Of a stretch of 58,167 bases of DNA, positions 50,263 to 55,919 are shown piece after piece. Positions within the stretch are counted from its first letter, which is position 1; every line of letters begins with the position of its first letter. The notes beneath the pieces were generated by a model, which was not told where the DNA came from, searched no databases, and saw only the letters and a list, made by a program, of their open reading frames with translations. The position numbers were made by a program, and so were the translations under genes. Origin of the DNA: an uncultured bacterium (GTDB lineage Bacteria; Krumholzibacteriota; Krumholzibacteriia; LZORAL124-64-63); assembly GCA_903859215.1 (NCBI GenBank), contig CAIOLW010000263.1, positions 1 through 58,167 on the forward strand, written 5' to 3'.

Positions 50263-51245
50263 ACCGAGTCGAACCCCCACACGGCCACCGCCAGCGGTCC
50301 CGGCTCCACGGCGCCGTCGTCGGCCACGCCGCCCAGCCAGGCGCGGGGCGAGGTCGGGTCGTCCGGCGGGGCGATCCCCGCCGCCGCCGCCGCGGCGACC
50401 AGCAGTTCCGGCCGGATCACGGCCCAGCAGCCGGCCGTCAGCGCTACCGGCACGGTGCCGAGCGCGGCCAGTCGCGCGACAAAATCCTCCTCGCCGCGCG
50501 GAACCAGCACCGCGCCGGCGAGCCCCCGCTCCCGCGCCGCGGCCAGCAACCTAAGCGCAAGGTCGAGGTCGCCGTCCCACTCCGTGACGTACCCGGGAAA
50601 GTCGGCGCCCTTGCCGCAGAAGACGGCGGCCCGGACCTCGCCCGCCGCTTCGGCGACCAGGCCGGCCGTCCCGGGCATCCCGTACAGCTGCTCCGCATCG
50701 CCCGCGTGGCGCACCGTCCGCCAGCGGTGCTGTTCATAGAGGCGCTGTGTTGCGGCCGCGTCGCGGGGCTCCCATGCGCGCACCGTCACCTCCGCCGACG
50801 CCCCGGACGGCAGGGAGGCCGAATCCAGCCCGACATGCCATTCGATCCCGGCCGGAACGAACCCCCGCCCGGCATAAATTTCCGGCCGATCGGTCCAGAG
50901 TGCCGCCAGCGGCACGTCGTTCCGGCGCAGCGCCGCCACCGCCGCAGCCTGCAGATGCGCGCTCAGCCCGCGCCCGCGACAATCGGGCCGCGTGACCACG
51001 CTGCCGATCGCGCCGACTGCGATTTCCCCGCAACTGGTTGTAAAGCTACGGACTAGCGTCGCGATGCCGCCGGCCAGCCGGCCGCGTTCGTCGAACGCCC
51101 CCATTTGCCAGGCCAGGTTTCCCGCGCCCAGCGCGAGCGGGAAATCGTCCAGCGCCCGCGTGCCGGAGCCCTGTGGCCTGATCTCTGCATTAACGAGTTC
51201 AAGATACTCGGCGTGCTGGGTGACGGTCAGACCGGCGATCTCCAT
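50259..51245 (-). CDS. GNAT-family N-acetyltransferase
   Basis: 328 residues. The acetyl-CoA binding motif is clear (VVTRPDCRGRGLSAHLQAAA, with RGRG as the pyrophosphate loop), preceded by beta strands (LAGGIATLVRSFTTSCGEIA) and followed by WTDRPEIYAGRGFVPAG. The C-terminal half (from ~180) looks like a second GNAT-like or sterol-carrier-like domain as in Eis-type proteins, but I cannot name it. GGGAG precedes the ATG at 51245. It is first in an operon with two glycosyltransferases and divergent from flagellin 1, so it may acetylate a sugar or flagellin side chains (inference). Confidence 0.82.
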   Translation of the reverse strand: MEIAGLTVTQHAEYLELVNAEIRPQGSGTRALDDFPLALGAGNLAWQMGAFDERGRLAGGIATLVRSFTTSCGEIAVGAIGSVVTRPDCRGRGLSAHLQAAAVAALRRNDVPLAALWTDRPEIYAGRGFVPAGIEWHVGLDSASLPSGASAEVTVRAWEPRDAAATQRLYEQHRWRTVRHAGDAEQLYGMPGTAGLVAEAAGEVRAAVFCGKGADFPGYVTEWDGDLDLALRLLAAARERGLAGAVLVPRGEEDFVARLAALGTVPVALTAGCWAVIRPELLVAAAAAAGIAPPDDPTSPRAWLGGVADDGAVEPGPLAVAVWGFDSV

Positions 51246-51432: not shown

Positions 51433-52278
51433 ATGGGACTCAGAGTCAATACTAACGTCGCGTCGCTGAATGCTCAGCGGCACCTGTACGACACGACCTC
51501 CCGCTTCGGCAAGTCGATGGAGCGCCTGAGTTCCGGCCTGCGGATCAACCGTTCGGGCGATGACGCGGCCGGCCTCGCCATCAGCGAGAGCCTCAAGTCC
51601 GACATCCGCGCGCTGCAACAGGCGTCCCGCAACGCTGCCGACGGCGTCTCGCTGGTGCAGACGGCGGAAGGTTCACTGGACGAAGTGAACAGCATCCTGC
51701 TGCGCCTGCGTGAACTGGCGGAACAGGCTGCGACGGAAACCCTGGGCGCCGATGAGCGTGTCTACCTGAACAACGAGTTCCAGGAACTGCTCGACGAGGT
51801 CAACCGCATCAGCAGCACGGCCGAGTTCAACGGCATCAAGTTGCTGGACGGCACCGCGCAGACGCTGCGCGTGCAGGTGGGCATCGGCACCGACGCCACG
51901 ACGAGCGCCGTGTCGATCGACCTCACGCAGGCGATGAGCGCCTCCGCGCTGGACCTGACGGCCGGCGTGCTGGTCATCACCGGCACCAACGGCATCGCCG
52001 CGCGAAACGCGATCGGCAGCATCACCGCCGCCACCGGCCGCGTGAGTTCCATGCGCGCCAACTTCGGCGCGGCGCAGAACCGGTTCGAGACCTCGATCCG
52101 CAACATCGGCATGACGGCGGAAAACCTCGCGGCCGCGAACAGCCGTATCCGCGACGTGGACGTGGCCCTCGAGACGTCGACGATGACCTCGCTGCAGATC
52201 CTGCAGCAGGCCGGCGTGTCGATCCTGAGCCAGGCCAACATGACCTCGCAGCTGGCGCTCAAGCTGCTGCAGGGCTAG
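51433..52278 (+). CDS. fliC: Flagellin 1 (divergent copy)
   Basis: 281 residues, a short flagellin with only the D0/D1 core. N-terminal LRVNTNVASLNAQRHLYDTT, LSSGLRINRSGDDAAGLAIS; C-terminal AENLAAANSRIRDVDVALET, ILQQAGVSILSQANMTSQLA. GGAGGAAG precedes the ATG. It is the most different of the four tandem flagellins, with an extra few residues in the centre and LLRLRELAEQAATETL instead of LLRMKELAEQSLNGTL. It has its own terminator, so it is a separate transcript, perhaps a proximal or minor filament component. Confidence 0.95.
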   Translation: MGLRVNTNVASLNAQRHLYDTTSRFGKSMERLSSGLRINRSGDDAAGLAISESLKSDIRALQQASRNAADGVSLVQTAEGSLDEVNSILLRLRELAEQAATETLGADERVYLNNEFQELLDEVNRISSTAEFNGIKLLDGTAQTLRVQVGIGTDATTSAVSIDLTQAMSASALDLTAGVLVITGTNGIAARNAIGSITAATGRVSSMRANFGAAQNRFETSIRNIGMTAENLAAANSRIRDVDVALETSTMTSLQILQQAGVSILSQANMTSQLALKLLQG

Positions 52279-52369: not shown

Positions 52370-52396
52370 TCAAGCCCCCTCCCCCGCCGACGATAC
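52370..52396 (+). promoter_or_regulatory. Sigma-28 promoter of flagellin 2
   Basis: TCAA (52370-52373), 15-base spacer, GACGATAC (52389-52396; 6/8 to GCCGATAA). The geometry equals that of the flagellin 4 promoter. The resulting leader is about 120 nt. Confidence 0.6.
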
Positions 52397-52422: not shown

Positions 52423-52442
52423 GCAGCGAAAGGACTCGCTGC
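52423..52442 (+). promoter_or_regulatory. Leader hairpin with AAGGAC loop (possible CsrA site), flagellin 2
   Basis: GCAGCGA / TCGCTGC, a perfect 7-bp stem with the six-base loop AAGGAC. CsrA is known to bind GGA in hairpin loops. A second GGA lies in the AAGGAGG ribosome site (52511-52517). Another hairpin (GCCCC-GAGC-GGGGC, 52471-52484) lies between them. Confidence 0.5.
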
Positions 52443-52523
52443 ACGCAGCCGGAGCGGGACGAACATCCGGGCCCCGAGCGGGGCGTACGGCAAATCCACC
52501 CAGCGTTTTCAAGGAGGAAAACC

Positions 52524-53351
52524 ATGGGCATCCGCATCAATACCAACGTTTCGTCGATCAACACGCGCCGCCACCTCCAGGGCTCCACGACCGCTTTCAA
52601 CAAGTCGATGGAAAAGCTCAGCTCCGGCCTGCGGATCAACCGCGCCGGTGATGACGCGGCCGGACTCGCCATCAGCGAAAGCCTCAAGTCGGACATCCGC
52701 GCCCTCGACCAGGCTGCGCGCAACGCTGCCGACGGCATCTCGCTGATCCAGACGGCGGAAGGCTCCCTGGACGAGGTCAGCAACATCCTGCTGCGCATGA
52801 AGGAACTCGCCGAGCAGTCCCTGAACGGCACGCTGTCGAACACCGACCGCGGCTACCTCAACTCGGAATTCACCGCGCTCAGGAGCGAGATCGACCGCAT
52901 CAGCGACAGCGTCGACTTCAACAACGTGAAGCTGCTCGACGGCACGGGCGGCACCGTGGGCATCCAGGTGGGCATCGGCACTACCGGCGCCGACAGCGTG
53001 GCCATCGATCTCGGCACCGACCTCGACACCGCGCACATGGGCCTGAGCTCCAGCGTCGACACCTACAGCAACGCTGCGATCGCGATGGACCAGGTCGACG
53101 CCGCCGTGTCGCAGGTCGTCAGCGCCCGCGGCGGCTTCGGCGCCATCCAGAACCGCCTGGAGAGCTCGATCCGCAACATCAACATGACCTCTGAGAATCT
53201 GGCGGCCGCCAACAGCCGCATCCGCGACGTGGATGTGGCCCAGGAGACGTCGAACATGACGTCGTACCAGATCCTGCAGCAGGCCGGCGTGGCCATGTTG
53301 GCGCAGGCCAACACCACGACGGGCCTGGCGATGAATCTGCTGCGCGGCTAG
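52524..53351 (+). CDS. fliC: Flagellin 2
   Basis: 275 residues, D0/D1 core only. IRINTNVSSINTRRHLQGST, LSSGLRINRAGDDAAGLAIS and LLRMKELAEQSLNGTLSNTD at the N-terminal side; NLAAANSRIRDVDVAQETSN and QQAGVAMLAQANTTTGLAMN at the end. AAGGAGG precedes the ATG. Its last 217 bp differ from flagellin 3 at only two positions, whereas the 5' half shows many silent differences. Expression is probably from the sigma-28 promoter upstream. No terminator follows, so flagellin 3 may be on the same transcript. Confidence 0.96.
   Translation: MGIRINTNVSSINTRRHLQGSTTAFNKSMEKLSSGLRINRAGDDAAGLAISESLKSDIRALDQAARNAADGISLIQTAEGSLDEVSNILLRMKELAEQSLNGTLSNTDRGYLNSEFTALRSEIDRISDSVDFNNVKLLDGTGGTVGIQVGIGTTGADSVAIDLGTDLDTAHMGLSSSVDTYSNAAIAMDQVDAAVSQVVSARGGFGAIQNRLESSIRNINMTSENLAAANSRIRDVDVAQETSNMTSYQILQQAGVAMLAQANTTTGLAMNLLRG
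53135..53351 (+). repeat. Near-identical tract shared with flagellin 3 (copy 1)
   Basis: From CTTCGGCGCC to the stop codon, 217 bp, with two mismatches to 54111-54327. Both are silent. Neighbouring upstream sequence is far less alike. Confidence 0.85.
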
Positions 53352-53413
53352 GCGGCGGACGCGGGCGGACGCTTGCGCGCCGCCGGCCAGCCGTAGCTGG
53401 GCAGCTGATGGAA

Positions 53414-53443
53414 GCCGGACCGGCTATCGGTTGCGGGTCCGGC
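53414..53443 (+). repeat. Inverted repeat in the flagellin 2-3 gap
   Basis: GCCGGACC / GGTCCGGC, a perfect 8-bp stem with a 14-base loop and no T-tract. It probably folds in the mRNA between flagellins 2 and 3. The 148-bp gap holds no gene. Confidence 0.45.
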
Positions 53444-53452
53444 GGAAGTGAA

Positions 53453-53470
53453 GCGGGCAAGGACGCCCGC
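53453..53470 (+). promoter_or_regulatory. Leader hairpin with AAGGAC loop (possible CsrA site), flagellin 3
   Basis: GCGGGC / GCCCGC, a perfect 6-bp stem with loop AAGGAC, the same loop as in the flagellin 2 leader, 30 bp before the flagellin 3 ATG and just upstream of the GGGAGGAA ribosome site. Confidence 0.5.
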
Positions 53471-53499
53471 GAGGGGAACGATCAGGGAGGAACTGAACC

Positions 53500-54327
53500 A
53501 TGGGTATCCGCATCAACACGAACGTGTCGTCGATCAACACTCGCCGGCACCTGGCAACCTCGACGAACGCCTTCAACAAGTCGATGGAAAAGCTCTCTTC
53601 GGGTCTCCGGATCAACCGCGCCGGCGACGACGCGGCGGGCCTGGCCATCAGCGAGAGCTTGAAGTCGGACATCCGGGCCCTGGACCAGGCGTCGCGCAAC
53701 GCTGCCGACGGCATCTCGCTGGTGCAGACGGGTGAAGGTTCGCTGGACGAAGTGTCGTCGATCCTGCTGCGCATGAAGGAGCTGGCCGAGCAGTCGCTGA
53801 ACGGTACGCTGTCGAACACCGACCGCGGCTACCTGAACAGTGAATTCGGCGCGCTCTCCAGTGAAATCAACCGCATCTCGGATGCGACCGATTTCAACGG
53901 CGTCAAGCTGCTCGACGGCAACGGCGGCACGATCTCCATCCAGGTCGGCATCGGCACGAACACGTCGGACAAGGTCGACATCAACCTGGCCACGGCGCGC
54001 GACACCGGTACCCTCGGCCTGTCGGCTACCATCGACAGCGCTTCGGGCGCGGGCACGGCCATGAGCCAGATCGACGCTGCGATCTCGACCGTGACCAGCG
54101 CGCGTTCGGACTTCGGCGCCATCCAGAACCGCCTGGAGAGCTCGATCCGCAACATCAACATGACCTCTGAGAATCTGGCAGCCGCCAACAGCCGCATCCG
54201 CGACGTGGATGTGGCCCAGGAGACGTCGAACATGACGTCGTACCAGATCCTGCAGCAGGCCGGCGTGGCCATGTTGGCGCAGGCCAACACCACGACGGGC
54301 CTGGCGATGAACCTGCTGCGCGGCTAG
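53500..54327 (+). CDS. fliC: Flagellin 3 (mosaic copy)
   Basis: 275 residues, D0/D1 core only (IRINTNVSSINTRRHLATST at the start, QQAGVAMLAQANTTTGLAMN at the end). The centre (SEINRISDATDFNGVKLLDG, GTISIQVGIGTNTSDKVDIN) is close to flagellin 4, while the last 217 bp are almost identical to flagellin 2. This makes it a mosaic. GGGAGGAA precedes the ATG. I find no sigma-28 promoter in the 148-bp gap, so it is likely read through from flagellin 2. A strong terminator follows. Confidence 0.96.
   Translation: MGIRINTNVSSINTRRHLATSTNAFNKSMEKLSSGLRINRAGDDAAGLAISESLKSDIRALDQASRNAADGISLVQTGEGSLDEVSSILLRMKELAEQSLNGTLSNTDRGYLNSEFGALSSEINRISDATDFNGVKLLDGNGGTISIQVGIGTNTSDKVDINLATARDTGTLGLSATIDSASGAGTAMSQIDAAISTVTSARSDFGAIQNRLESSIRNINMTSENLAAANSRIRDVDVAQETSNMTSYQILQQAGVAMLAQANTTTGLAMNLLRG
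54111..54327 (+). repeat. Near-identical tract shared with flagellin 2 (copy 2)
   Basis: Matches 53135-53351 at 215 of 217 positions, in the same orientation, and ends at the stop codon. Confidence 0.85.
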
Positions 54328-54362
54328 TCAATCCTTCGCTGACCGGCCGGGGCCGGCGGGGT

Positions 54363-54395
54363 GCGGGGTGCCTTCGGGCACCCCGCTACTTTTTA
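54363..54395 (+). terminator. Rho-independent terminator of flagellin 3
   Basis: GCGGGGTGCC-TTCG-GGCACCCCGC, a perfect 10-bp stem with a UUCG tetraloop, followed by TACTTTTTAT. Confidence 0.92.
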
Positions 54396-54441
54396 TCCCG
54401 GCCCAAAGCTCAGAAAATATCTGTAAGACAAAAAACACTCC

Positions 54442-54468
54442 TAAAGTGCAAACGGCTGATGTCGATCA
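54442..54468 (+). promoter_or_regulatory. Sigma-28 promoter of flagellin 4
   Basis: Perfect TAAA (54442-54445), 15-base spacer, GTCGATCA (54461-54468; 6/8 to GCCGATAA), in an AT-rich island right after the flagellin 3 terminator. It leaves a leader of about 120 nt. Confidence 0.7.
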
Positions 54469-54536
54469 TTTCCGTACCGGAGGACAAATATCTGCCACCC
54501 GGAAGAATGAGGGCCTCTCAGACCACCGCATGTGAC

Positions 54537-54572
54537 CCGGGCCGCGAGCCCGGCTGAGGGCAAGGAAGTCCC
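54537..54572 (+). promoter_or_regulatory. Structured flagellin 4 leader with AAGGAA loop
   Basis: Two small hairpins: CCGGGC-CGCGA-GCCCGG (54537-54553) and GGGC-AAGGAA-G(T)CCC (54558-54572), the second with a bulged T. The GGA-bearing loop sits at a place comparable to that in flagellin 3, before the AAGGAGG ribosome site. Confidence 0.35.
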
Positions 54573-54596: not shown

Positions 54597-55421
54597 ATGG
54601 GAATCCGGATCAACACCAACATCAGTTCGTTGAACACGCAGCGCCACCTGTCCCGCAGCTCCACCGAGTTCCAGAAGTCGATGGAGAAGCTGAGCTCGGG
54701 TCTCCGGATCAACCGCGCCGGTGACGACGCGGCCGGCCTGGCCATCAGCGAGGGCTTGAAGTCCGACATCCGCGCCCTGGACCAGGCGTCCCGGAACGCG
54801 GCCGACGGCATCTCGCTCGTGCAGACGGGTGAAGGCTCGCTGGACGAGGTGTCCTCGATCCTGCTGCGCATGAAGGAACTGGCCGAGCAGTCCCTGAACG
54901 GCACGCTGTCGAACACCGACCGCGGCTACCTGAACAGTGAATTCGGCGCGCTCAGCAGTGAAATCAACCGCATCTCGGATGCGACCGAGTTCAACGGCGT
55001 CAAGCTCCTTGACGGCAACGGCGGCACGATCTCCATCCAGGTCGGCATCGGCACGAACACCTCCGACAAGGTCGACGTCAACCTGGCTACCGCGCGTGAC
55101 ACCGCCACCCTGGGCCTGTCGGCCACGATCGACAGCGCTTCGGCTGCCGGCACTGCCATGGGCCAGATCGACGCTGCGATCTCGACCGTGACCAGCGCTC
55201 GTTCGGACTTCGGCGCCATCCAGAACCGTCTGGAGAGCTCGATCCGCAACATCAACATGACCTCGGAGAACCTGGCGGCTGCCAACAGCCGTATCCGTGA
55301 CGTGGACATCGCGAAGGAAACCTCGCGCATGACCAGTTACCAGATCCTCCAGCAGGCGGGCGTCTCGATGCTGGCCCAGGCCAACACGAGCACCAGCCTG
55401 GCGATGGCTCTGCTGCGCTAG
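54597..55421 (+). CDS. fliC: Flagellin 4
   Basis: 274 residues, D0/D1 core only. IRINTNISSLNTQRHLSRSS, LSSGLRINRAGDDAAGLAIS; C-terminal NLAAANSRIRDVDIAKETSR and QQAGVSMLAQANTSTSLAMA. It has the best sigma-28 promoter of the set, so it is a good candidate for a major filament protein. AAGGAGG precedes the ATG. The centre is about 90% identical to flagellin 3 at DNA level, while the start and end differ. Confidence 0.96.
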   Translation: MGIRINTNISSLNTQRHLSRSSTEFQKSMEKLSSGLRINRAGDDAAGLAISEGLKSDIRALDQASRNAADGISLVQTGEGSLDEVSSILLRMKELAEQSLNGTLSNTDRGYLNSEFGALSSEINRISDATEFNGVKLLDGNGGTISIQVGIGTNTSDKVDVNLATARDTATLGLSATIDSASAAGTAMGQIDAAISTVTSARSDFGAIQNRLESSIRNINMTSENLAAANSRIRDVDIAKETSRMTSYQILQQAGVSMLAQANTSTSLAMALLR

Positions 55422-55864: not shown

Positions 55865-55919
55865 CGGAGCGCGGGCGGGTCGACGGATCGACTAGCTGTC
55901 TGTCACGGGGGAGCCGATC

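Follow-up and report, generated by a model that had tools for sequence, protein, structure and literature searches.

The window analysed here is a 58,167-nt stretch (contig CAIOLW010000263.1, assembly GCA_903859215.1) from an uncultured bacterium of the Krumholzibacteriota phylum (class Krumholzibacteriia), and it ends in a late-flagellar gene cluster with a tandem array of flagellin genes (fla1-4). The leaders of fla2, fla3 and fla4 contain RNA hairpins with an ANGGAN hexaloop, followed by a second GGA at the ribosome site. It is highly probable, in our view, that these hairpins serve as CsrA operators in a CsrA-FliW-flagellin homeostasis switch; as far as sequence can test them, the defining features of the hag/flaA-type switch are all present here. 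The CsrA reading of these leaders, put forward in the original prediction, is supported by (i) loop-specific conservation, (ii) a hairpin at the Shine-Dalgarno (SD) sequence, (iii) the co-occurrence and adjacency of csrA and fliW and (iv) hairpins before csrA and fliD.

The upstream hairpins of the three leaders are as follows:

52423..52442, forward strand: fla2 upstream CsrA-type hairpin (BS1), 7 bp, GCAGCGA[AAGGAC]TCGCTGC, hexaloop 52430-52435
53453..53470, forward strand: fla3 upstream CsrA-type hairpin, 6 bp, GCGGGC[AAGGAC]GCCCGC, hexaloop 53459-53464
54558..54571, forward strand: fla4 upstream CsrA-type hairpin, 4 bp with one G-U, GGGC[AAGGAA]GTCC, hexaloop 54562-54567

The perfect 7- and 6-bp stems claimed for fla2 and fla3, both closing AAGGAC, are exact, and the weaker fla4 hairpin with its AAGGAA loop is present as described. 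The second GGA claimed at the ribosome site was also recovered: each of the three leaders has at least two GGA sites, one of which overlaps the SD. The fla3 upstream hairpin is identical in two genomes of the same genus.

We estimated how often an ANGGAN hexaloop stem of the given length arises by chance, using 4000 dinucleotide shuffles of each leader (region -150..-20), and obtained P values of 0/4000 for fla2, 0.002 for fla3 and 0.011 for fla4. Throughout the window (both strands), only 5 of 258 ANGGAN sites close a stem of at least 6 bp, and three of these five are in flagellin leaders, including the SD site of fla2. Leader folding energies have z-scores of -0.8 (fla2), -2.0 (fla3) and +0.3 (fla4). 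Total energy is thus uninformative, and the hairpin signal is one of loop identity plus stem rather than of total stability.

The CsrA-type hairpin scan was run over the window, the adjoining locus L003 and the fetched loci of the family; leader-survey and loop counts include related sequences, so that the events counted below are not independent. Among 51 fla2-4-type leaders, 19 contain an ANGGAN hexaloop hairpin of at least 6 bp (0.05 expected) and 29 contain a 4-bp one (0.52 expected), as compared with a 6-bp hairpin in 1 of 21 fla1-class leaders. ANGGAN makes up 1.2% of the 6-mers in the fla2-4-type leaders, and it is the loop of 20 of their 39 hexaloop hairpins of at least 6 bp; the corresponding figure for both strands of all fetched family loci is 59 out of 2276. 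These counts bear on the possibility that the hairpins have nothing to do with CsrA and act as 5' stabilisers or standby structures, with the GGA loop being simply a purine-rich loop or a ribosome standby site. Hairpins are indeed frequent at the 5' ends of highly expressed mRNAs. However, a generic stabiliser needs no ANGGAN, which accounts for half of the strong leader hexaloop hairpins against 2.6% over all loci; moreover, the stem is free to change while the loop is not, and csrA and fliD have the same loop form. We therefore regard this explanation as very improbable.

The covariation of the stems was then analysed in the fla2 class, the fla3 and fla4 sets being too few or too similar. 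In other genera, the fla2-class upstream hairpin is found at -84 to -98 with wholly different stems (e.g. CCGTCGA/TCGACGG, CCGCCAA/TTGGCGG, CGGGGA/TCCCCG and GGGCGACC/GGTCGCCC) that always close ANGGAN. We aligned, without gaps, 15 distinct hairpins from the source genome and its relatives, selected because their leaders combine a TTTTC-type SD arm with an ANGGAN in this position, irrespective of pairing. Two-sided changes occur in 7 of 7 pairs, while the A and GGA positions of the loop are invariant. Paired cells amount to 92.4%, versus 64.4% in shuffled alignments and no more than 55% in slid ones; the covariation score is 0.79 versus 0.24 (reached in 0/500 shuffles). Three further qualifying sequences, all from one genus (g8; genomes G010, G019 and G027), have ANGGAN at -90 that is unpaired as a hexaloop, and a pentaloop (e.g. 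TCC[AGGAT]GGA) fits two of the three; with these included, 83% of cells are paired and the score is 0.68, still with 0/500. No ANGGAN was found at the upstream place in one further leader with a TTTTC-type SD arm (L059). A looser test of all ANGGAN sites within -105..-75, in leaders outside the fla1 and divergent classes, gives 65% paired versus 45% when re-dealt (0/5000).

Different stems with a kept loop had been taken as a sign of selection on RNA structure, and the compensatory changes in the fla2 class bear this out; in relatives, both loops and stems are kept in this compensatory manner. The resemblance among leaders might in principle reflect chance or copying among flagellin paralogues, given that the flagellin genes are tandem duplicates and that very close relatives share stems. 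But stem sequences differ among paralogues and genera, and the shuffle expectation is exceeded several-hundredfold, so that the covariation and shuffle results already contradict this explanation and leave it scarcely credible.

Beyond the original prediction, our analysis reveals that the ribosome site itself is within a hairpin loop, and adds the likely csrA and fliD sites and the apparently exempt fla1 that are described below. The SD hairpins of the three leaders are as follows:

52505..52522, forward strand: fla2 SD hairpin (BS2), perfect 6 bp, GTTTTC[AAGGAG]GAAAAC, hexaloop 52511-52516
53482..53496, forward strand: fla3 SD hairpin, TCAG[GGAGGAA]CTGA, 4 bp, 7-nt loop
54581..54592, forward strand: fla4 SD hairpin, either a 3-bp hexaloop TTC[AAGGAG]GAA or a 7-bp pentaloop stem GCATTTC/GGAATGT

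The fla2 leader therefore has two ANGGAN hexaloop hairpins, the upstream one and that enclosing the SD. Relatives of the same genus have the fla3 SD hairpin at the same place as TCAA/TTGA or TCAG/TTGA. An ANGGAG hexaloop stem of at least 6 bp encloses 20 of 72 flagellin SDs, versus 6 of 479 other ANGGAG sites. Calculated from the coordinates, the GGA-to-GGA spacing is about 81 nt in fla2, about 24 nt in fla3 and about 22 nt in fla4. In several genera, a further GGA-containing motif (e.g. CCGGAGCGGGAC, CTGGAGTCGGCAGAC and GGTCGGAGCGGGCAGAC) is present between the two fla2-class hairpins, about 25 nt past the upstream one (window ~52447-52460), and is possibly a third CsrA contact.

These spacings and SD hairpins are also relevant to a variant in which the hairpins are CsrA sites but a block of ribosome entry is not the main outcome: CsrA would mostly affect transcript stability, or be titrated by the abundant flagellin mRNA. 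The flaA leader of Campylobacter jejuni also titrates CsrA (PMC4894983), each of the three flagellin mRNAs here has sites, and about 80 nt separate the upstream site of fla2 from its SD. Against this, the SD of fla2 and of many relatives forms an ANGGAN-type hairpin loop, suggesting that CsrA competes directly with the ribosome. We consider a predominant role in stability or titration unlikely, although the two modes of action are not mutually exclusive.

The proteins required for CsrA-FliW control are encoded in the same genome, where csrA (PF02599, E 4e-23, 83.7 bits) and fliW (PF02623, E 3.5e-26) are single-copy and adjoin each other; the check proposed with the original prediction thus found both genes. 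They are placed by an overlap between the window end and contig C72:

58047..58167: 121-bp exact overlap of the window end with the start of contig C72 (locus L003)
L003:190-432, reverse strand: csrA
L003:484-1023, reverse strand: fliW

The first 121 bases of C72 are identical to the final 121 of the window, which puts the end of csrA about 70 bp beyond the window. The gene order past the overlap is csrA, fliW, flgL and flgK, all on the reverse strand, and csrA is convergent with the fla-fliD-fliS genes. The join is supported by a genome of the same genus (G003), in which csrA is located about 3 kb from a flagellin array on one contig. Both csrA and fliW are present in nearly all of the 40 genomes with a flagellin match, and the assemblies of the exceptions (G001, G020, G029 and G033) are incomplete or fragmented. 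Two genomes have csrA but neither fliW nor flagellin. CsrA retains L4 and R44, the RNA-contact positions of Escherichia coli CsrA. In the Protein Data Bank, it is best matched by CsrA from the FliW-CsrA complex 5DMB (residues 2-79, C-terminal extension included), and FliW by the FliW chain of the same entry. From these sequence features, the protein is predicted to have both the RNA-binding residues of a CsrA and a C-terminal extension of the FliW type.

Hairpins of the same form are found before csrA and fliD. The csrA SD is within GGAC[AGGGAG]GTCC, and GGAC[ANGGAG]GTCC occurs at -11 in every one of the 12 csrA leaders read from Krumholzibacteriia (this genome included), in which the loop N alone varies. 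This suggests that CsrA may regulate its own synthesis through this hairpin. The fliD leader has the following hairpin:

55878..55893, forward strand: fliD leader hairpin GGTCG[ACGGAT]CGACT, hexaloop 55883-55888, 37 nt before the fliD start

A matching GTCG[A(C/A)GGA(T/A)]CG(A/G)C occurs at -32 to -38 in 14 of 25 other distinct fliD leaders and is missing in genera g13, g8, g6, g3 and others among these 25; fliD may thus also be under CsrA control. In both the csrA and fliD hairpins, the loop positions that vary are those expected of an ANGGAN site. Divergent flagellin paralogues starting with VGIRI.. or LGIRI.. also have such hairpins, e.g. a 7-bp SD stem CTGACGG[AAGGAA]CCGTCGG in G002.

Based on these features, we propose that a CsrA dimer would bind the upstream ANGGAN hexaloop together with the ribosome-site GGA, which in fla2 lies in the second ANGGAN hexaloop hairpin, and that bound CsrA would block ribosome entry. 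FliW, encoded beside csrA, would bind the C-terminal extension of CsrA and release it, while flagellin held back inside the cell would tie up FliW and thereby re-establish repression. Flagellin would therefore be made only when it can be exported.

Several observations weigh against this switch. (i) Of the three upstream hairpins, that of fla4 is the weakest and least certain, because its 4-bp stem includes one G-U pair and is absent from the minimum-energy fold, in which its GGC pairs with an upstream GCC; its loop is kept in most fla4-class relatives, but the GGA is lost in G023. (ii) The fla2 GGA spacing of ~81 nt is far above the optimum of 18 nt cited in PMC4894983, although intervening hairpins shorten the distance. 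(iii) Covariation cannot confirm the csrA and fliD stems, because the stem cores barely vary. (iv) fla1 and most of its class are without CsrA-type hairpins; no ANGGAN hairpin was found in the fla1 leader of the window (-150..-20). (v) Flagellin leaders of Phycisphaerae are without such hairpins even though csrA is present in 8 of 10 genomes checked.

The fla4-class leaders (window 54500-54570) also have in common a CTCTCAG...CTGAGGGC that can form a long-range stem exclusive with GGGC[AAGGAA]GTCC, and many fla4-class relatives have an upstream AAAGGAG. The alternatives in the fla4 leader could possibly constitute a structural switch.

The late-flagellar cluster at the window end consists of fla1, fla2, fla3, fla4, a flaG-like short open reading frame (ORF), fliD and a fliS-like ORF, all on the forward strand; the flaG, fliD and fliS labels are based on cluster position and sequence only. 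Its flagellin and cap genes and predicted promoters (from a consensus scan) are as follows:

51433..52278, forward strand: flagellin 1 (fla1), leader without an ANGGAN hairpin
52370..52396, forward strand: predicted sigma-28-like promoter of fla2, TCAAG..CGACGATAC
52524..53351, forward strand: flagellin 2 (fla2), 275 aa
53500..54327, forward strand: flagellin 3 (fla3), 275 aa
54442..54468, forward strand: predicted sigma-28-like promoter of fla4, TAAAG..GTCGATCA
54597..55421, forward strand: flagellin 4 (fla4), 274 aa
55920..57236, forward strand: fliD (filament cap), named by its N-terminal sequence and place in the cluster

The fla2 promoter has the same position in fla2-class relatives, where it reads TAAAG..CCGATA. 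The consensus scan found no sigma-28-like promoter of its own for fla3, which is likely co-transcribed with fla2. Leaders of the fla1 class mostly also lack a sigma-28-like promoter, and those of many other genera share a conserved element, GGGCAAGCTGCAA, some 70-110 nt ahead of the start. Perhaps fla1 is regulated separately, like C. jejuni flaB. A sigma-54-like 16-mer, TGGCCTGATCTCTGCA (GG-N10-GC; window 51174-51189), occurs 219-259 nt before fla1 in 13 genomes and is located within a divergent acetyltransferase-like ORF. Promoter function is possible, as is mere coding conservation (NAEIRPQ). As a tentative model, to which we give somewhat less than an even chance, the sigma-28-type flagellins fla2-4, fliD and csrA would form a CsrA-FliW filament regulon under ANGGAN control, and an exempt fla1, whose upstream region is organised differently, would allow a first filament segment to be made while CsrA represses the bulk flagellins.

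We also compared flagellin leaders outside Krumholzibacteriia. Among 41 Desulfobacterota-type leaders (with a few records of other kinds), 10 have an upstream ANGGAN hairpin of at least 4 bp (0.56 expected) and 18 have an SD hairpin of at least 4 bp. Several of them (L095, L122, L128, L132, L138 and L151) have the same pair of upstream and SD ANGGAN hexaloops as here, e.g. CACCGC[ATGGAA]GCGGTG and AATATTC[ATGGAG]GAATATT, with the upstream hairpin closer to the SD. Such hairpins were found in none of 13 Planctomycetota and 3 Cloacimonadota flagellin leaders, most of whose genomes have csrA. The two-hairpin leader is therefore found widely, though not in every csrA carrier. The simpler rule that csrA alone predicts hairpins was rejected, as Phycisphaerae carry csrA but not such leaders. 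Flagellins 63-82% identical to fla2 occur in records labelled 'Gemmatimonadales' (L089 and L093, JAHOYV01), 'Reyranella' (L075) and 'Gammaproteobacteria' (L094), which are likely mislabelled or contaminated metagenome bins of Krumholzibacteriia.

Among known systems, C. jejuni flaA is closer in anatomy to the leaders described here than Bacillus hag is. The flaA leader has two ANGGA hexaloops 21 nt apart, of which the second covers the ribosome site; other Campylobacter species show compensatory changes, and CsrA binding and FliW antagonism are proven (PMC4894983). The present leaders share the two ANGGA-hexaloop stem-loops, the position of the second over the ribosome site, the compensatory changes, FliW as the (here predicted) antagonist and a sigma-28(-like) promoter. 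They differ in that the fla2 GGAs are ~81 nt apart rather than 21 nt, that three flagellin paralogues each have their own hairpins, and that fliD and csrA likely have sites as well; moreover, fliW and csrA are adjacent here and near the flagellins, whereas fliW is not beside csrA in Epsilonproteobacteria. Of the two CsrA sites in Bacillus subtilis hag, one covers the SD, and FliW is a non-competitive antagonist that acts via the CsrA C-terminus (PMC7652899). Two flagellin-leader sites with one over the SD, fliW beside csrA and a C-terminal extension of CsrA are shared with that system. By contrast, fla2 has hexaloop hairpins at both sites, the CsrA sites here are predicted from sequence, and a tandem array with one apparently exempt paralogue replaces the single main flagellin gene of B. 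subtilis. In CsrA targets such as E. coli glgC, the dimer is held by a high-affinity hairpin loop and bridges from there to the SD (PMC7652899). The combination of a hairpin site and an SD site is similar here, but glgC belongs to another target class and the antagonists there are the CsrB/CsrC RNAs, not FliW.

A limited search of the open-licence literature found no report of such a switch in Krumholzibacteriota. A switch known from Bacillus and Campylobacter is probably present in a new bacterial branch, where it probably covers fliD and csrA as well. In brief, comparison of these leaders argues strongly, and independently of experiment, that flagellin is under CsrA-FliW control in an uncultured phylum remote from Bacillus and Campylobacter. 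It also suggests that the two-hexaloop leader is widespread, Desulfobacterota-type leaders included. Because the stems change completely while the loop stays, the leaders are a clean natural mutagenesis set for the requirements of CsrA. The family also hints at a wider, testable filament regulon that may include fliD and csrA, with one exempt flagellin.

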